Shown: in pieces, positions 1-13,738 of the stretch
Layout: every line of letters starts with the position of its first letter
Numbering within the stretch: the stretch's first letter is position 1
Assembly: GCF_013408175.1 (NCBI RefSeq)
Contig: NZ_JACBYW010000008.1
Span: 62,001-126,000, forward strand
DNA: 64,000 bases
Origin: Actinopolyspora biskrensis
GTDB taxonomy: Bacteria; Actinomycetota; Actinomycetes; Mycobacteriales; Pseudonocardiaceae
Direction: 5' to 3'
Made by a program: the position numbers and the translations under genes
The notes under the pieces: model-generated
What the model was told of the DNA's origin: nothing
Databases searched by the model: none
The model's input: only the letters and a program-made list of their open reading frames with translations

Positions 1-1940
1 TCGATCAGATCGGCCAGGACAGCGCCGGCTCGTGAAGCGTCACAGCCGAGGAAGCGTTGTACGGTCAGTACCGCGTTCCCGCTTTCCGCGCCGTGCTCTT
101 GCTTCCGGCAGAAGAGGTCGTTGCGCAGCGTGCCGATCTCGGCGAACGTCCGGGTCAGCTCCCGCAGCTGTCTGCTGCGGTGCAGTGTGTCGTCGAGCGG
201 GGCGTCCATGGTGAGTCGGATCAGTGCCAGCGAGAGCCCACCTGTCCCGGTCCGTCCGCGTTTCCCGATGAGCTCGACGGGGTCGGCGATTCCGCTCCGG
301 GTGAGGTCGACCGGTTCGCGCAGCCGGTTTCCGAGGAAGTCCCGCAGGTCTTCGGTGAATCGTCTTCGGGGGTGGGTGGGCATGCTCGTTCTCGTGCGGG
401 CCAGCAGTTCGGCCAGTGCGTGTTCGGCCGGTCCGCTGGGATGTGGAGCCGTTTCGGGAGGCCGCTCCAGGACGGTGAGGAGTCTGTCGACGAAGATCCG
501 GGCGCCGGCCGTGTCACGGGGTCGTTCGAATTCCGCGACGAACAGCTCGTCCAGGTAGTCCGCCCAGATGTGCCAGTCGGCGACCAGGGTAAGTTCCGCT
601 TCGCCCGCGTCCGGGCGTGTGAGTGCGGCGTACAGGGCGTGGTCGGTCGCCGCGAAGGTGTCCTCGTTCCAGACGGTGGTTTCGAGCAGACCGTGCCGTT
701 CGACCCAGGACCTGGTGTGTTCGCGCAGTTGGTTCAGCAGCGGATTCGGCGCGACCTCGTGGGGCGGGCGGGAATCGGTTGGTTCGAACGGCCGGTTCCG
801 CTCTCGACCAGTGGGCCGATCACGCGTGGTGTCCGTGATCGCGCCAGGCGGGCATTGCTCTGGTGGGAGAGCCGACATTCCGGTTCTGCTGGGCAGGCCG
901 AGCAGCCGGCTGATTTCCGGTGGTCCGCTCGGCTCGGAGCTCATGTACCGGCTCGAGAGCGAGTGCCACTCGTGTCCACCGGCCTGCCAGTCCCGCAGCC
1001 CTTGGACGTAGCCGAGAACGTCGGCACGTCCGGCCGGTTCGAGGGCGTGTTCGACGAACAGCGGCGGCAGTGCCGCGGCCGCGGTCTCGTCGAACCGGTG
1101 CAGTCGTGAGGTCAGCAGGTCGTTGGTGATGTCGGCGGCCCGCTGTGGTGAGCACTCGAAGAAGTGCTCGATCACCAGCACACCGTTGTTGACTTCTCCT
1201 TCCTCCTGCGTTTCTCGCTGATAGGAGAACAGGTCGTTGCGCAGGTGTACCCCGTCGGAGAACGCGTCGGCGAGCACGCGGAGCGGGTGGGTGTGGGCCA
1301 TGGAAGGGGGAAGTTCGGCCTCCCTCGCGTACTCGACCAGGTGCGCCGCCCACTGCGCCCCGCCGAACTCGCGGTGTGTCTCGATGTGGTCGATCGGGTT
1401 CGGGACACGGTCGCTGGCGATGTTGACCAGTTCCCGCACGAGGCCCTCGAACAGGTTCCGGGTGCTTTCTGCGAAGCGCAGCGACCATCCGGGCGACATC
1501 TGCCCGGCCGTGCGAGCCCACAGGTCGGACAACCCGCGTTCGACGGGATCACCGGGCCGCTGGGGAGACTTCGTGGGACGGGTCGGCATGAACCGTTCCA
1601 GGCCACGCAGGTACTCCCCGGCCAGGTCAGGCCGGTCGGTTCGTTTGTGACGGTCCAGGAAGTAGTCGTCGAGGAAGAACGCCCACACGTACCAGTCGGT
1701 GACCAGTTTCAGTCTGGGCGCCGTCGCGTCGGGGTGCGTGTAGCCGCACAGCAGGGCGTAGTCGTGCTCGTCGAAGTCGGCTTCGGACCAGACGGCTGTT
1801 TCCCCCGGCGCCTCGTCGTCGGTGAGCATTCCCATGTCCAGGGCCCACTGTTTGCTGTGGACCCGTGCCGCTGTCACGTGCGGGTTCAAACGGGCCGAGT
1901 AGGGCATGTAGAAACCGGGGAGTTCGAAGGGCCGTGGCAA
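1..1940 (-). CDS. geoA: Geosmin synthase (bifunctional germacradienol/geosmin terpene cyclase), 3' end outside window
   Basis: This cytosolic two-domain class I terpene cyclase converts farnesyl diphosphate to germacradienol and then, with the second domain, to geosmin. The N-terminal domain carries the Mg-binding motif DDYFLD at about residues 91-96 and the NSE motif NDLFSYQRE at about 235-243. It also has the family signatures VTDWYVWAFFLDD and GGHEWHSLSSRYM. A second cyclase-like domain follows after a linker, with LVADWHIWADYLDELF. About 646 of the usual 720-740 residues are visible before the window edge. TTG at 1940 is chosen because it lies 5 nt beyond the encapsulin stop and gives the family N-terminus PFELPGFYMP; the first ATG is residue 12. 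It is probably cotranscribed with the encapsulin. The second-domain motif is degenerate relative to DDxxD, as is usual for the geosmin-forming domain. Confidence 0.93.
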   Translation of the reverse strand, partial: MPRPFELPGFYMPYSARLNPHVTAARVHSKQWALDMGMLTDDEAPGETAVWSEADFDEHDYALLCGYTHPDATAPRLKLVTDWYVWAFFLDDYFLDRHKRTDRPDLAGEYLRGLERFMPTRPTKSPQRPGDPVERGLSDLWARTAGQMSPGWSLRFAESTRNLFEGLVRELVNIASDRVPNPIDHIETHREFGGAQWAAHLVEYAREAELPPSMAHTHPLRVLADAFSDGVHLRNDLFSYQRETQEEGEVNNGVLVIEHFFECSPQRAADITNDLLTSRLHRFDETAAAALPPLFVEHALEPAGRADVLGYVQGLRDWQAGGHEWHSLSSRYMSSEPSGPPEISRLLGLPSRTGMSALPPEQCPPGAITDTTRDRPTGRERNRPFEPTDSRPPHEVAPNPLLNQLREHTRSWVERHGLLETTVWNEDTFAATDHALYAALTRPDAGEAELTLVADWHIWADYLDELFVAEFERPRDTAGARIFVDRLLTVLERPPETAPHPSGPAEHALAELLARTRTSMPTHPRRRFTEDLRDFLGNRLREPVDLTRSGIADPVELIGKRGRTGTGGLSLALIRLTMDAPLDDTLHRSRQLRELTRTFAEIGTLRNDLFCRKQEHGAESGNAVLTVQRFLGCDASRAGAVLADLI

Positions 1941-1945
1941 AGCGC

Positions 1946-3349
1946 TCAGTCCTGTCGCCCGATCTCGACGTGTTCGAGCACTCCGAGTGCGTCGGGGACC
2001 AGCACGGCGGCGGAGTAGTAGGCGCTGACGAGGTAGGAGAGGATCGCCTTCTCGTCGATGCCCATGAACCGCACCGACAGACCCGGCTGGTACTCGTCGG
2101 GGATGCCCGTCTGATGCAGGCCGATCACCCCCTGGTTGTGCTCGCCCGTTCGCATCAGCAGTACCGAACTGGTTCGTGTGTCGCTGACGTGCAGTTTGTT
2201 GCAGGGAAGCAGGGGGATTCCGCGCCAGGAGGGGACCTGGTGGCCGTTGATGTCGGTACTCTCCGGATAGATGCCGCGGCGGTTGCACTCCCGTCCGAAG
2301 GCGGATATCACCTTCGGGTGGGCCAGGAAGAATCCCGCGTCCTTCCACACGAGCGCGAGGAGTTCGTCGAGGTCGTCGGGGGTGGGCGGGCCGCTTCGGG
2401 TGTGGAGGCGCTGGGTGAGGTCGGCGTTGTGCAGCAGCCCGAACTCGCGGTTGTTGACCAGCTCCTCCTCCTGGCGCTCGCGCAGCGCCTCGATGGTCAG
2501 CCGCAACTGCTGCTCGGTCTGGTTCATCGGCTGGTTGTACAGATCGGCCACCCGGCTGTGCACCCGCAACACCGTCTGGGCCACGCTGAGCTCGTACTCC
2601 CGGGGAGCCGGCTCGTAATCCACGTACGTCCCCGCCAACGGCGGCTCACCAACGTGGCCGGAGGCGATGTCGATGGCGGCTTCACCGTAGGAGTTGTGCG
2701 GGGGGTTCGGGCTTTGTTGCGTTTCCTGTATGTGTGAGCGCAGCTCCTGAGCACCGGGGATTTCCTCGAGCGTTCGACGCGAGAGGGTCAGCACGGTGCA
2801 GGCGGTGATGGCCTTGACGGTGTAGCCCCAGGAGCCGGTGTCGTCGGCCAGTGTGTGCGCTCCCACGTATTCGCCGTCGGCGAGAACGTCGAGCACGGTG
2901 TCCTCGCCGTACTCGCCGGGGCCGATCCGGTTGGCCTTGCCGTGTGCCATCAGCACCACCCGGTCGGCCGGACCGCCCCGTTCGACGATCACGTCTCCCG
3001 GGACGTGCTCCTCCTGGACGAACCGGTCGGCCAGCGCGGCCAGCGCCGACTCGTCGTCGAACCCGCGCAGCAGCGGAAGTTCCCGCAGCTCCTGCGGGAT
3101 CACCCGTACCTCGGCACCGGTGTTGACGAAGGTCAACCGACCGTCACCGAGCAAATAGGTCAGTCGGCGATTGACGCGGTACACACCGCCGTTGGATTGC
3201 ACCCAGGGCAGCATCCGCAGCAACCACCGCGAGGAGATCCCCTGCATCTGCGGCGCCGACTTGGTCGTCGTCGCCAAATTGCGGGCGGCGTCGGTTCCCA
3301 GACTCGACTGTGCGTACGTGCGGTCTCCGGAGGTCTCCGGTGTGGTCAT
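1946..3349 (-). CDS. Family 2B encapsulin shell protein (EshA-like) with cNMP-binding-like domain
   Basis: HK97-fold nanocompartment shell protein of 467 residues, the usual size of family 2B encapsulins such as Streptomyces EshA. After an N-terminal arm (about 1-80) comes a cyclic-nucleotide-binding-like insertion (about 85-215) containing [20 protein letters not shown] and [12 protein letters not shown]. The shell domain follows, with the conserved stretches [36 protein letters not shown] and [17 protein letters not shown] at 3349 is chosen for its MTTPETSGD start, which matches a disordered N-terminus; upstream in-frame codons read into the AT-richer intergenic region. The stop is 5 nt from the terpene cyclase start, so the two are probably translationally coupled. 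Family 2B shells are known to package terpene cyclases, so geosmin synthase is the likely cargo (inference). Confidence 0.9.
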
Positions 3350-3861: not shown

Positions 3862-4161
3862 GTGAAGTGGAATCTGCGGCTCGTGGCGGCGCACCGCGGT
3901 ATCTGGAAAGCCGGTGAACTGCAAAACCGATTGGCCGAACACGGGTTGCACGTCTCCGCGGGAAAGCTGTCGGGCCTGTGGTCCGGCACTCCGATCAGCC
4001 TGAAATTGTCCGATTTGGATGTCATCTGCAGCGCATTGGACTGCGAGGTCGGAGAGTTGCTGACCCCGGAAACCGGCGGATCCGCCGTGGGAGGAACCAC
4101 GCGCAGTACCAGTACCGCCCCGGACCCTGCCCACCTGAACCGGGGGGAGAGGAGTGAATGA
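3862..4161 (+). CDS. XRE/Cro-CI-type helix-turn-helix regulator
   Basis: Small DNA-binding protein of 99 residues. Residues about 5-66 form a Cro/CI-like HTH: LVAAHRGIWKAGELQNRLAEH is the first helix pair, followed by VSAGKLSGLWSG and LSDLDVICSALDCEVGELL, the last matching the canonical fifth helix of HTH_26/XRE domains. The C-terminal 30 residues are Thr/Ser/Pro-rich and probably disordered. It starts at GTG (3862). Its TGA overlaps the ATG of the next gene (ATGA), so it is coupled to the DUF4239 protein and probably regulates that operon. It diverges from the encapsulin gene, so it could also act there (inference). Confidence 0.8.
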   Translation: MKWNLRLVAAHRGIWKAGELQNRLAEHGLHVSAGKLSGLWSGTPISLKLSDLDVICSALDCEVGELLTPETGGSAVGGTTRSTSTAPDPAHLNRGERSE

Positions 4162-4925
4162 ACCTTTACGTCAGTGGCTCGCTGTGGGTGTGTGCCGCCG
4201 CCGTGACGGCCGGGCTGGTCGGTTACCTGGTGCGCAAGTTCGGGCTGGACGAGGGCCGCCCGGGCAACAACGACGCTGCCGGGCAAGTGTTCGTGATCGT
4301 CAGCGGTATGCACGCGGTCGTGCTCGGTTTCGTCATGGTGACACTGTTCGACTCCGTGGGGACCGCTCGCGAGGGCGCCTACCAGGAAGCCCGAAATCTC
4401 GTTGCCGTCTCCTGGGCGGCTGACGCGCTACCGGAACCGACGGGGCAGCGGGTCCACGAGCTCACCGCCTCCTACGCCCGCACGGTCATCGAACGCGAAT
4501 GGCCCAATATGCGCGCGGATACCACCGTCTCCGATGACGGTTGGCGCGAACTCGGCCGCATCAAGCAGGTCGTACTCGACGCGCAGGCCTCCGGAGACTG
4601 GGAGGAAGGCCGCAAAGCCGAAGCGATGGACCGGCTGCAGGACGTCTATCGCCAACGGCAGGACAGGCTGACCACCGCGTTCCACCGCGACGTGACCACC
4701 GTGGTCTGGTTCGTGCTCGTGCTGGGCAGCGTTCTTGTCGTGCTGCTGCCGAACCTGTTCGGCGGAACCAGACTGATCCCCCACGTGGTAATCGTGGCCA
4801 CCCTGGCGGCGACCCTCGCGTTGCTGGTGTTCGCCATCTACCACCTGCAGAACCCGTTCGCCGGAGAGTCGAGGATCGAACCGACCGCGTTCCGGTGGGC
4901 CCTCGACAGACTCGTGGACAAGTGA
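4158..4925 (+). CDS. DUF4239 (bestrophin-like) integral membrane protein
   Basis: Membrane protein of 255 residues with the DUF4239 layout. One hydrophobic helix lies near residues 5-27. A second is in GQVFVIVSGMHAVVLGFVMV (about 46-68). A soluble helical section follows (GTAREGAYQEARNLVAVSWAA and ERRW-type charged helices), then two C-terminal helices near 175-195 (TTVVWFVLVLGSVLVVLL) and 200-225. The family's function is not established; the fold resembles bestrophin channels. It overlaps the XRE gene upstream by ATGA and the secreted protein gene downstream by TGATG, so the three form one coupled operon. Confidence 0.82.
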   Translation: MNLYVSGSLWVCAAAVTAGLVGYLVRKFGLDEGRPGNNDAAGQVFVIVSGMHAVVLGFVMVTLFDSVGTAREGAYQEARNLVAVSWAADALPEPTGQRVHELTASYARTVIEREWPNMRADTTVSDDGWRELGRIKQVVLDAQASGDWEEGRKAEAMDRLQDVYRQRQDRLTTAFHRDVTTVVWFVLVLGSVLVVLLPNLFGGTRLIPHVVIVATLAATLALLVFAIYHLQNPFAGESRIEPTAFRWALDRLVDK

Positions 4926-8935: not shown

Positions 8936-9277
8936 CTACCGCTCCGGAGGTGGTTCTTCGAACTCGGCCAGACGCGCCCGCGTCTCCTGAAGGTCGCGTT
9001 CGAGTTCGGCTATGCGGGACGCCGCGCTCAGGAGCGTGTGCTTCTGGTCGAGCAGCTCGCGCACTCGAGCGGCCAGCCGCAGCTGTTTGCGACTGTAACG
9101 GCGGTGGCCACCCCCGGAGCGTGTCGGCATCAGCAGCTCTGTGCTGTTGTCCAGACTGCGCAGGAAGTCGGGGGTGACCCCGAGGATCTCGGAGGCGCGA
9201 CCCATGGTGTAGGCCGGATAGTCGGCGTCGTCGAACGCGTCGGCAGCGCGGTCGGTGGGACCTGGGCCGTCGGGCAC
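8936..9277 (-). CDS. MerR-family regulator (HspR-like)
   Basis: 113-residue protein with a MerR-type N-terminal wHTH (about residues 20-85): YTMGRASEILGVTPDFLRSLD, then the wing RSGGGHRRYSRKQLRLAARV. A short coiled-coil dimerisation helix (ASRIAELERDLQETRARLAE) follows. There is no effector domain. It lies 62 nt downstream of, and in the same direction as, the Hsp20 gene; this is the usual actinobacterial hsp20-merR pair in which the regulator controls its own heat-shock operon (inference from context). Its C-terminus nearly abuts the end of padC, which converges on it. Confidence 0.85.
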   Translation of the reverse strand: MPDGPGPTDRAADAFDDADYPAYTMGRASEILGVTPDFLRSLDNSTELLMPTRSGGGHRRYSRKQLRLAARVRELLDQKHTLLSAASRIAELERDLQETRARLAEFEEPPPER

Positions 9278-10281: not shown

Positions 10282-12564
10282 ATGACCGACACCACGGACG
10301 GCACCACCTCGCCTCCGGAGAAACTCGTAGCCGCCCTCACGCTCGAGGAGAAGGCCGCGCTCACCAGTGGGAAAGGGTTCTGGCACACCACCCCCGTCGT
10401 ACGGTTGAGCCTTCCTTCGATCGTGCTCACGGACGGTCCGCACGGGGTTCGCAAACAGTCCGGCAACGGTGATCACCTCGGACTCGGGGACAGCGTCCCG
10501 GCCACGTGCTTTCCCCCGGCCGTGGCCATGGGGTCCGCCTTCGACCCGGAACTGCTGGAACGCGTCGGCCGGGCCCTCGGCGCGGAGGCACGCGCCGCGG
10601 GGGTTCACGTGTTGCTCGGCCCCGGACTCAACATCAAACGTTCCCCGTTGTGCGGGCGCAACTTCGAGTACTTCTCCGAGGACCCGATCGTGAGCGGTGT
10701 GCTGGCGAGCGCGCTCGTGCGCGGCCTGCAGAGCCGGGGTGTCGGTGCCTCGCCGAAGCACTTCGCCGCCAACAACCAGGAACACGACCGGATGCGGGTC
10801 AGTGCCGACATCGACGAGCGTCCGCTGCGGGAGATCTACCTGCGCGGTTTCGAACGTGTCGTGACCGAGGAACAGCCCTGGACCGTCATGTGCTCGTACA
10901 ACCGCGTCAACGGCGTCTACGCCGCCGAGAACTCGTGGCTGCTCGACACGGTGCTGCGCGAGGAGTGGGGATTCGACGGACTCGTCGTGTCCGACTGGGG
11001 CGCGGTGAACGAACGCGCTGCTGCCGTCGGAGCGGGACTCGACCTGGAGATGCCCGCCGGCGGCAGCGAGGCCGACGAGCGACTCGCCGCGGCCGTGCGT
11101 TCGGGAGAGCTCGACGAGAACACACTGGACACGGCGGCTTCCCGGCTGGTGCGACTGGTCGGACGCGCCACGGGCTCGGAATCCCACGAGGCTCAGGAAC
11201 CCGACCTCCGCACGCACCACGAACTCGCCCGCGAGGTGGCCGGACGCAGTGTCGTGCTGCTGAAGAACGCGGACGGGGTGCTGCCGTTGGCCGCGGACAC
11301 CTCCGTCGCCGCCATCGGCGAGTTCGCCCGCACTCCGCGCTATCAGGGCGCGGGCAGCTCGTTGATCAACCCGACCGCCCTGGACAGTGCGCTCGAAGCG
11401 CTCCGCACCCGCGCCGGGAGTGAACACGTCACCTTCGCCGCCGGTTTCACCTTCGACGGGGCCGAAACCGACCAGGACCCGCTGCGCCGGGAAGCCGTCG
11501 AAGCCGCTGCCGACTCCGAGGTCGCCCTCGTGTTCCTCGGGCTGCCCGACTCCGCGGAGTCCGAAGGGTACGACCGGGAGGACCTGCGGCTGCCCACCCC
11601 GCAGCTGGAACTTCTCGACGCCGTGCTCGAAGCCAACCCGCGCACCGTCGTCGTGCTGTCCAACGGCAGTGTCGTGGATCCGGCACCGTTCGTCGACCGG
11701 GTTCCCGCGCTGGTCGAGGGGTGGTTGCTCGGACAGGCCGGCGGCGGGGCGCTGGCCGATGTGCTCTACGGCGACGTCAATCCCTCCGGGCGGCTCACCG
11801 AGACCGTCCCGATGCGTTTGGCCGACACCCCGGCTTTCCTCGACTTCCCCGGAGAGCACGGCCACGTGCGCTACGGAGAGGGACTGTTCGTCGGGTACCG
11901 GTGGTACGACGCCAGGGACTTCTCCGTGCGATTCCCGTTCGGCCACGGACTGTCCTACACGTCCTTTACCTACTCGGACCTCTCGCTGCGGGCCGACGAG
12001 GCGGGAATAACGGTGCGTGCGACGGTCACCAACACCGGACGACGCGCGGGACGCGAAGTCGTGCAGGTCTACACGGGAGTGCCCGGCTCCACGGTGACCC
12101 GCCCGCCGCGGGAGCTCAAGGGCTTCGCGAGCGTCGAGCTGGAAGCCGGACAGCAGCGCGAGGTGACGGTCGAACTGCGCAGGAAAGACCTGGCCCACTG
12201 GGACACCCGGTTCGGAAGCTGGGTGGTGGAGGGAGGCGAGTACACCGTCGCGGTGGGAGCTTCCAGCCGTGACATCAGGCTGGACGGAACGGTCGAAGTC
12301 ACCGGCGACGAGACGCGCACACCGCTGACCCTGGAATCCTCCCTCGGGGAGTTGCTGCGTGACCCACAGGCCCGGCAGGTGCTGCAGCGGATGCTCGAAC
12401 AGGCCCCCGGGGCGGACACCCTCTCCGCCGCACTGAGCGATCCGGGGCTGGTGAGCATGATGGAGTCGTTCCCGCTGGACCGGCTGCCCACCTTCCTGGG
12501 GCAGGAGTTCAGCCGTGAACGCATCGCCTCGCTGCTCGAGATCGTCAACGCGCAGCGCTCCTGA
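10282..12564 (+). CDS. Glycoside hydrolase family 3 beta-glucosidase
   Basis: 760-residue cytosolic retaining glycosidase (no signal peptide) acting on beta-linked oligosaccharides. The GH3 N-terminal TIM-barrel-like domain (about 30-260) has VLTDGPHGVRKQ, GRNFEYFSEDP, KHFAANNQEHDR and the nucleophile region LVVSDWGAV with D238. The GH3 C-terminal domain (about 300-520) has VLLKNADGVLPL and GSSLINPTALDS. A fibronectin-III-like domain follows (about 555-640) with FPFGHGLSYTSF at its start. A helical tail of about 100 residues after it is unusual. It is monocistronic and divergent from hsp20. Confidence 0.93.
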   Translation: MTDTTDGTTSPPEKLVAALTLEEKAALTSGKGFWHTTPVVRLSLPSIVLTDGPHGVRKQSGNGDHLGLGDSVPATCFPPAVAMGSAFDPELLERVGRALGAEARAAGVHVLLGPGLNIKRSPLCGRNFEYFSEDPIVSGVLASALVRGLQSRGVGASPKHFAANNQEHDRMRVSADIDERPLREIYLRGFERVVTEEQPWTVMCSYNRVNGVYAAENSWLLDTVLREEWGFDGLVVSDWGAVNERAAAVGAGLDLEMPAGGSEADERLAAAVRSGELDENTLDTAASRLVRLVGRATGSESHEAQEPDLRTHHELAREVAGRSVVLLKNADGVLPLAADTSVAAIGEFARTPRYQGAGSSLINPTALDSALEALRTRAGSEHVTFAAGFTFDGAETDQDPLRREAVEAAADSEVALVFLGLPDSAESEGYDREDLRLPTPQLELLDAVLEANPRTVVVLSNGSVVDPAPFVDRVPALVEGWLLGQAGGGALADVLYGDVNPSGRLTETVPMRLADTPAFLDFPGEHGHVRYGEGLFVGYRWYDARDFSVRFPFGHGLSYTSFTYSDLSLRADEAGITVRATVTNTGRRAGREVVQVYTGVPGSTVTRPPRELKGFASVELEAGQQREVTVELRRKDLAHWDTRFGSWVVEGGEYTVAVGASSRDIRLDGTVEVTGDETRTPLTLESSLGELLRDPQARQVLQRMLEQAPGADTLSAALSDPGLVSMMESFPLDRLPTFLGQEFSRERIASLLEIVNAQRS

Positions 12565-12721
12565 CCAAGTTGTCGGCCGCCTCGGGGGCGCTTCTCGTCA
12601 CGAGTCCGAACGGCCGGACGTCGAGTTCGGCACCGTTCAGCTCCCCCGCGGCGAGGTAAGGACCTCCGCGGGCCGACACAGCCGCGGTGGTCCGGTCGGA
12701 CAACCGTTCCGAGGCGAGCTG

Positions 12722-13738
12722 CTACATGGTCAGGACGACGCGGAACCGGGCCTGGTTGCTCATCATCCGCTCGTAGGCCTGGGCGGCCTTGGCCAGTGGC
12801 ATGGTGTCGATCATCGGCCGGACACCGGTCAGCCTGCTGAACCGCAACGTGTCCTCGGAGTCCTTCGAGGTCCCGGAGGGATGCCCCACGATCGAGGCAG
12901 CCGGCGTTATCAGGGAAGGTGGTGCCACCTCGAGCGGATCGCTCGCAGCGCCGAGGACGAGCAGCTGCCCTCGAGGGGCGAGTCCGGGCAGCACGCGAGC
13001 GGCAGCGGCCCCACTGGCCGCCGTGGCCAGCACCACTGTCGCGCCGCCCGTCGCGGCCAGCGCTTGTCCCGGATCCGTGGCTTCGCTGTCGATGTGCTCG
13101 TGCGCGCCGAGCTCACGAGCGAGTTCCGCTTTCTCCGAGCCCCGGGAGATCGCGACGACCTCCATGCCCATTCTGGCTGCGATCTGAATGCCGAGATGCC
13201 CCAGGCCGCCCACACCGAGTACGGCGACGCGGTCTCCCGGGCGAGCCACGCTCTCCCGCAACGCGTGATAAGTGGTGACCCCGGCACACAGCAGGGGAGC
13301 CGCCTCGATGGCGGAGAGCTGCTCGGGCATCCGCGCCAAGGCGTCGGCGGGCACCACCACCGCCTCGGCATAACCCCCGTCGAAAGTAATACCGGGCACC
13401 CTGCCGTTGGCGCAGGTGATGAAGTCCCCACGGCGGCACGATTCGCAGTGGTAACAGGCACCACCGAACCAGCCCACGCCCACCCGTTGCCCGCGTTGCC
13501 ACGAACCCCGCACACCGGTTCCGACCTCGTCGATCACCCCCACGATCTCGTGACCGGGAACGATCGGGTAGGGCGTGCTCGGCAGCACGCCCTCCTTGGC
13601 CCACATGTCGCTGTGACAGATTCCGCAGGCCTCGACCCGGACCCGCACCTCACCCGCGGAGACCTCTGGTACTTCCCGGTCGACCAGCTCCAGTGGGCCA
13701 CCGGGCTCGGCGACCTGAACAGCGCGCATCGAAGACAT
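12722..13738 (-). CDS. Zinc-dependent alcohol dehydrogenase
   Basis: 338-residue medium-chain dehydrogenase that oxidises alcohols or reduces aldehydes with NAD(P). The catalytic zinc ligands are in CGICHSD and GHE (VPGHEIVGV). The four structural-zinc cysteines are in CYHCESCRRGDFITC. The Rossmann motif GVGGLGHLG lies near residue 175. ATG at 13738 gives MSSMRAVQV and is preceded by GAGGAG; the longer open frame upstream has no family similarity. It converges with the GH3 gene, and no partner gene is adjacent. Confidence 0.92.
   Translation of the reverse strand: MSSMRAVQVAEPGGPLELVDREVPEVSAGEVRVRVEACGICHSDMWAKEGVLPSTPYPIVPGHEIVGVIDEVGTGVRGSWQRGQRVGVGWFGGACYHCESCRRGDFITCANGRVPGITFDGGYAEAVVVPADALARMPEQLSAIEAAPLLCAGVTTYHALRESVARPGDRVAVLGVGGLGHLGIQIAARMGMEVVAISRGSEKAELARELGAHEHIDSEATDPGQALAATGGATVVLATAASGAAAARVLPGLAPRGQLLVLGAASDPLEVAPPSLITPAASIVGHPSGTSKDSEDTLRFSRLTGVRPMIDTMPLAKAAQAYERMMSNQARFRVVLTM

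Follow-up and report, generated by a model that had tools for sequence, protein, structure and literature searches.

We describe here a four-gene operon of the halophilic bacterium Actinopolyspora biskrensis that starts in a 64,000-nucleotide stretch of its genome (the window; C8:62001-126000 of genome G000, genome size 4.95 Mb) and encodes, in this order, a Family 2B encapsulin shell protein (Enc1), a geosmin synthase-like cyclase (GSL), a second shell protein (Enc2), and a polyprenyl synthase. An original prediction based on the window had taken Enc1 and the cyclase for a self-assembling compartment that produces geosmin. Our comparison of this operon with its relatives suggests that it probably specifies something else, namely a shell for a first-step sesquiterpene cyclase whose second domain is retained as a pseudo-cyclase. 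The first cyclase domain of GSL has its complete set of metal ligands, and the second domain departs from geosmin synthases at both of its metal-binding motifs.

Composition of the operon

The shell gene is a Family 2B encapsulin, as originally predicted. Enc1 scores 770 bits with the NCBIfam model NF041163 ("family 2B encapsulin", cut-off 400) and contains PF00027 followed by PF19307, that is, the cyclic nucleotide monophosphate (cNMP)-binding-like insertion in the E-loop and the SrpI-like HK97-fold domain that together define the family. It is encoded on the same strand as the cyclase, and the gap between the genes is indeed 5 nt, given a TTG start of the cyclase at 1938-1940 (the stop codon of Enc1 is at 1946-1948). 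The proposed unit of one shell gene and one cyclase proved too small, since a second shell gene and a polyprenyl synthase gene also belong to the operon. Base 1 of the window cuts it, and the last 286 nt of the GSL gene, stop codon included (C8:61715-62000), Enc2, and the polyprenyl synthase gene all lie beyond this edge.

Enc2 scores 764 bits with NF041163. The first diagnostic motif reads ALVWK in Enc1 and ARRRR in Enc2, and motifs VWK and RRR at this site are used to tell the two shell classes apart (Dutcher et al. 2025, PMC12407261). In the terpene cyclase/polyprenyl transferase (TC/PT) operons described in the same paper, the cyclase gene can be flanked by Enc1 and Enc2, and the polyprenyl transferase gene follows Enc2; the window operon has the same motifs and the same arrangement, and thus belongs to the two-component Family 2B TC/PT type. 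The polyprenyl synthase has the first Asp-rich motif, reaches 455 bits with NF041169 ("family 2 encapsulin cargo polyprenyl transferase", cut-off 450), and is a likely second cargo. The suggestion that the cNMP-like insertion of Enc1 links geosmin output to a nucleotide signal is disfavored, and with it a cyclic-nucleotide-regulated shell, since the Family 2B insertion domain is reported as shown not to bind cyclic nucleotides (PMC12407261).

In geosmin synthases, domain 1 converts farnesyl diphosphate to germacradienol and domain 2 converts germacradienol to geosmin (PMC10881772, PMC7192455). The description of the shell's partner as the two-domain geosmin enzyme holds for the type of protein and for its first domain. 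Residues 3-335 of GSL align with a solved chain of the S. coelicolor germacradienol/geosmin synthase (5dz2, E 5e-114), carry the DDxFLE-type and NSE ligands expected of a germacradienol-forming domain, and share 58-59% identity with three synthases of the kind found on contig C1 of this genome. In six aligned GSLs of the window type (type 2), residues D91, D92, R190, N235, S239, E243, R331, and Y332 of domain 1 (window numbering) are invariant, and the Asp and NSE ligands of domain 2 vary; we take R190, R331, and Y332 to have roles in domain 1. The description fails for the second domain, where DELFV replaces the DDYYP-type motif and the NSE ligands read N-C-E. Domain 2 of GSL is only 28% and 30% identical to its counterparts in the synthases encoded on contigs C1 and C6, whereas these two counterparts share 61% identity. 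A GPTGLGTSAAR-like sequence in the interdomain linker and at the C-terminal end has been proposed as the targeting motif of such cargo (PMC8346489). In GSL the linker contains only a degenerate counterpart, GLPSRTGMSALP, and the C-terminal copy is gone.

According to the reading we favor, Enc1 and Enc2 would co-assemble into one mixed shell that packages the first-step cyclase together with the polyprenyl synthase. The latter would supply isoprenoid diphosphate, and domain 1 would convert farnesyl diphosphate to a product of the germacradienol or germacrene D type. The pathway would stop at this point, domain 2 being unable to finish the step to geosmin and presumably retained as a folded pseudo-cyclase domain and not as a catalyst.

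Geosmin synthases elsewhere in the genome

The window genome encodes three geosmin synthase-like proteins and four Family 2B shells, the latter in two operons, one at the window locus and one on contig C1 (L008). The C1 operon shares the four-gene order, with 69% identity between the Enc1 proteins and 57% between the polyprenyl synthases. In contrast to GSL, its synthase has standard motifs in both domains (DDHFLE and NDLFSYQRE in domain 1, DDYFP and NDLTSYQKE in domain 2), and GPTGLGTSAA occurs both in its linker and in its tail. The two loci also differ in their flanks: upstream of the C1 operon, a NUDIX-domain gene, presumably encoding isopentenyl diphosphate isomerase, takes the place of the helix-turn-helix (HTH) and bestrophin-like gene pair found at the window. 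The C6 synthase has standard ligands and no shell gene within its 18-kb stretch. Geosmin is likely made in this organism by the encapsulin-flanked C1 synthase, by the free C6 synthase, or by both.

A geosmin-producing compartment built around the window cyclase would agree with the adjacency and the conserved synteny, which are real, with the published geosmin synthase-like cargo of Family 2B shells (PMC8346489), and with the ligands of GSL domain 1. However, the low identity of domain 2 and its altered motifs speak against it, as do the scores with NF041168, which are 781 bits for GSL and 1169 and 1171 bits for the C1 and C6 synthases (all three below the curated cut-off of 1200). Such a compartment fits the C1 locus far better, and at the window it seems to us very improbable.

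The C6-type geosmin synthase of another Actinopolyspora genome, G002 (L134, G002:C1:4071723-4073849), falls into several separate matches and is possibly a broken gene. Another terpene synthase of the window genome, a single-domain protein near the end of contig C8 (L139:9606-10568, C8:172605-173567), has selinadiene synthase as its best NCBIfam match (236 bits, below the cut-off of 450). L139 was left out of the cyclase alignment, and the fragmentary L134 was kept.

2-Methylisoborneol (2-MIB) synthase is a terpene cyclase housed in a Family 2B shell, and the window operon shares both elements with that system. Nevertheless, as the true cargo it was rejected here: no 2-MIB synthase scored above the family cut-off in the window genome, the methyltransferase itself not having been searched for.

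Second domains in related operons

Conserved adjacency in relatives, a further element of the original prediction, was found. Among ten Actinopolyspora genomes (the window genome and nine others), the C1-type operon (type 1) is present in all ten and the type 2 operon with a full-length cyclase in five, namely the window genome, G001, G004, G005, and G007. Compared with the window, the shells of the four orthologous operons are 77-82% identical (complete genes) and the cyclases 39-41%. All five cyclases are encoded by full-length reading frames (714-741 codons). In the four orthologues, domain 1 retains the first Asp, N, S, and E (DDQLP or DDQLL, NDLFSYQRE), and all four ligands are missing from domain 2 (NDGAH, NDDAH, or NDGAS; EDLVVAHHR and similar), in contrast to the conserved shells and polyprenyl synthase. 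The second domain of the G004 protein is still recognized by PF19086 (42.6 bits) and by 5dw7 (E 2e-17).

Similar losses were observed outside the genus. In Actinomadura parmotrematis (L057) the cyclase between the two shell genes has RDLFT and has lost the NSE ligands. Genus g11 has two separate genes in place of a single cyclase gene between the shells in four genomes (G217, G225, G328, and G360), this being the number found and not a share of the genus, as genomes without a match would go unlisted. The first-domain protein has 356-359 residues and the tail GPTGLGTS (three measured). In the separate second-domain protein all three NSE positions are changed in four of four cases and the first Asp in three of four; its P-x-GLGTAA tail is invariant and resembles the proposed loading motif. 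These dead domains still match the terpene synthase family (PF19086, 88-99 bits, cut-off 23.7), and a four-row profile of them aligns with 5dw7 at E 8e-61. The geosmin synthase-like KaGerS of Kutzneria albida, which yields germacradienol and germacrene D (PMC7192455), may be a counterpart of the split operons, although we treat this only as a lead.

The specificity of ligand loss was assessed in named loci, the best 80 of 209, picked non-randomly by similarity to the window cyclase. A Family 2B shell gene lies within 1.5 kb in 22 of them, 45 are without one, and 13 are unclear. Of the 80 loci, 79 retain the complete set of domain-2 ligands (first Asp, N, S, E); L057 is the exception. Among 68 further rows (duplicates included), departures occur only in the window protein and its four orthologues, with duplicate rows of these, and in one protein truncated by a contig end. 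Leaving that protein aside, the loss cases of the window type, L057, and g11 all lie between two shell genes, and no loss of domain-2 ligands was seen away from a shell gene in the rows compared. A stricter rule, that ligands are lost only between two shell genes, was rejected. In L220:6507-10150 (G098:C3) a single shell gene precedes one for a divergent two-domain cyclase that shares about 39% identity with the C1 synthase, reads GDLMD in domain 2 (Gly replaces the first Asp, and the NSE ligands are intact), and has the tail WPTGLGTSAARIG. The loading motif was likewise rejected as a marker of encapsulation: PxGLGT is commoner beside shells (16 of 22 linkers), yet it occurs in the linker of 20 of the 45 non-adjacent synthases as well (13 of the 80 loci unclassified).

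Genome G241, of another genus with the same family code, carries both a type 2 operon (L174) and a type 1 operon (L175), which suggests that the two operons are old paralogues. Conserved flanks, with a bestrophin-like gene and an HTH relative upstream of L174, link the window operon to this orthologue. In the Enc1 tree the type 2 Enc1 of G241 groups with those of Actinopolyspora (99/94), and L057 groups with g11 (84/87). Since the G241 cyclase keeps its domain-2 ligands, they were lost at least twice. The cyclase trees, built by a quick method and long-branched, served for grouping only; that of domain 2 sets the type 2 proteins apart from geosmin synthases.

Selection was estimated as the ratio of nonsynonymous to synonymous substitution rates (dN/dS) by the Nei-Gojobori method with Jukes-Cantor correction, for which only matched comparison is meaningful in these GC-rich genes; codons with gaps, N, or stops were left out. 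For three matched pairs (G001-G007, G004-G007, and G001-G004), dN/dS is 0.44-0.50 in the type 2 cyclase, 0.10-0.22 in the C1-type and 0.11-0.16 in the C6-type synthase, 0.12-0.15 in type 2 Enc2, and 0.22-0.34 in the type 2 polyprenyl synthase. Within the type 2 cyclase the values are 0.46-0.52 for domain 2 (bootstrap upper limits 0.66-0.97) and 0.35-0.45 for domain 1, with overlapping intervals. Between the window and G004 or G007, with dS near 1, the cyclase has 0.59, compared with 0.30-0.31 in the C1 synthase and 0.15 in Enc2. The dead domain of g11 has 0.25-0.45 (six pairs, highest upper limit 0.63) and domain 1 has 0.15-0.24 (three pairs, the first-domain gene of G217 being left out); the g11 polyprenyl synthases were left out too, and so was the type 2 Enc1 of Actinopolyspora, which in G005 (L131:7830-9373) is read in two frames, by sequencing error or a real break, and in G001 (L129) contains a run of N. 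Thus dead domains evolve faster than working ones, yet they are not free of constraint in close pairs.

The raised dN/dS of the type 2 cyclase would also be expected if this gene were on its way out, with the polyprenyl synthase as the cargo that keeps the shells. Several relatives would fit decay of this kind. In G009 a 183-residue stub lies between the shell genes, and the polyprenyl synthase shares 80% identity with its G004 counterpart; G008 retains no more than the HTH gene and a shortened bestrophin-like gene (a 36-residue match); and no match to the bestrophin-like protein was found in three genomes, G002, G003, and G006. On the other hand, five genomes retain full-length frames whose products share about 40% identity with the window protein, the ligands of domain 1 are invariant, dN/dS stays below 1, and the separated dead domain of g11 is present and constrained in four genomes. 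We consider decay rather unlikely.

Another alternative is a cyclase with two working domains that yields a terpenoid other than geosmin. The G241 cyclase and the sandwiched cyclase of a Micromonosporaceae metagenome-assembled genome (L041) keep all four domain-2 ligands with an Asp motif ending in T or V instead of P, and the separate position of type 2 proteins in the domain-2 tree would agree with it. At the same time, all four ligands are lost in the four Actinopolyspora orthologues and most of them in the separated domains of g11, so that new chemistry in domain 2 appears to us unlikely.

Several observations weigh against a first-step cyclase with a catalytically silent second domain. 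Domain 2 of the window GSL itself retains three of the four ligands (D464, N607, and E615), and some activity of it is conceivable. The complete ligand sets of G241 (Asp motif DDFFT) and L041 (DDLFV; no polyprenyl synthase match on its short contig) make an altered but active domain 2 possible. Domain 2 shows dN/dS of 0.73-0.74 between the window and G004 or G007, with dS near 1, which points to weak constraint along the window branch. The type 2 cyclase of G009 is an in-frame stub (L214:11006-11554), flanked by shell genes that both contain a run of N, and would fit decay. Finally, the degenerate linker motif and the lost C-terminal copy make the loading of GSL uncertain.

A more specific and tentative extension of the pseudo-cyclase reading is that the dead domain is a working part. 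It may act as a cargo scaffold or loading adaptor in two-component terpenoid encapsulins, leaving the chemistry to domain 1 and the polyprenyl synthase; the repeated independent loss of catalytic residues would fit this, as would the persistence of the domain in g11 as a gene of its own, under purifying selection and with a tail like the loading motif.

Shell genes, flanks, and significance

The two shell genes of type 2 operons share long identical tracts of DNA. Exact runs between Enc1 and Enc2 reach 139 bp in the window operon (L007:8209-9648 and 11946-13349), 329 bp in G004, and 62 bp in the type 2 pair of G241, and are at most 39 bp in the C1-type pairs of the window genome and G004. In a quick shell tree, the type 2 Enc2 of Actinopolyspora groups with type 2 Enc1 (98), despite its Enc2 motif. 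The tracts suggest gene conversion between the type 2 shell genes, and the resulting similarity would fit shells that must remain compatible in one mixed particle. They set the type 2 operons of Actinopolyspora apart from the TC/PT operons described previously; the phrase "gene conversion" does not occur in the main text of that paper (PMC12407261). In G007 the exact run is 1227 bp and an Enc2-type motif stands at the Enc1 position; this near-identity, possibly a collapse in the assembly, was given no weight as evidence. Nor do we attribute the window operon entirely to an assembly error: the 20 kb around it contain no run of N, orthologues occur in four other genomes, and both operon types are present in another genus.

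The features of the locus are collected in Table 1. An HTH_26 relative is found upstream of the orthologous G241 operon, and the bestrophin-like gene is kept beside all five full-length type 2 operons of Actinopolyspora and that of G241. Further along the window, a phenolic acid decarboxylase gene (PF05870, 8397-8930, plus strand) is convergent with a MerR-type regulator gene (8936-9277, minus strand).

Table 1. Features of the type 2 operon and its flank (window positions unless C8 is given)
Feature	Position	Strand	Remark
Enc1, Family 2B encapsulin shell protein	1946..3349	-	467 aa; diagnostic motif LVWK (Enc1 class)
cNMP-binding-like E-loop insertion of Enc1	2759..3004	-	PF00027, residues 116-197
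HK97/SrpI-like shell domain of Enc1	1955..2713	-	PF19307, residues 213-465
GSL cyclase, 5' part	1..1940	-	741 aa in full; TTG start at 1940
First cyclase domain of GSL	936..1934	-	Residues 3-335; metal ligands kept, DDYFLD and NDLFSYQRE
Degenerate linker counterpart of the proposed cargo motif GPTGLGTSAA	846..881	-	GLPSRTGMSALP
Eroded Asp motif of GSL domain 2	537..551	-	DELFV (DDYFP/DDYYP in geosmin synthases)
Altered NSE motif of GSL domain 2	96..122	-	NDLFCRKQE, Ser to Cys
Enc2, second shell gene	C8:60209-61648		Outside the window, after the cyclase gene
Polyprenyl synthase gene	match at C8:59152-60138		Outside the window, after Enc2
HTH_26 (Cro/C1-type) regulator	3862..4161	+	Divergent from Enc1
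Bestrophin-like membrane protein	4158..4925	+	PF14023; divergent from Enc1

The operon class as such is already known, and the headline of a geosmin synthase-like cyclase beside a Family 2B shell is not new, such cargo having been described in 2021 (Andreas & Giessen 2021, PMC8346489); in addition, a 2025 preprint reports encapsulins in all of its myxobacterial geosmin clusters. The window GSL resembles that cargo (PMC8346489, NF041168) in its two cyclase domains, its Family 2B neighbor, and a domain 1 close to germacradienol/geosmin synthase, and differs from it in the eroded domain 2, the degenerate linker motif, and the lost C-terminal motif. Erosion or splitting of domain 2 in shell operons was not found in the open-licence literature, outside which most subscription papers lie.

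The published proposal for cargo loading is a short motif, which in our sample is also present in free geosmin synthases. Loss of domain-2 chemistry with retention of the frame, and the separate tagged protein of g11, part catalysis from packaging, and the operons with eroded or split second domains make the question of cargo loading directly testable. Overall, the data also carry a warning for annotation, since a geosmin synthase next to an encapsulin does not mean that geosmin is made there.

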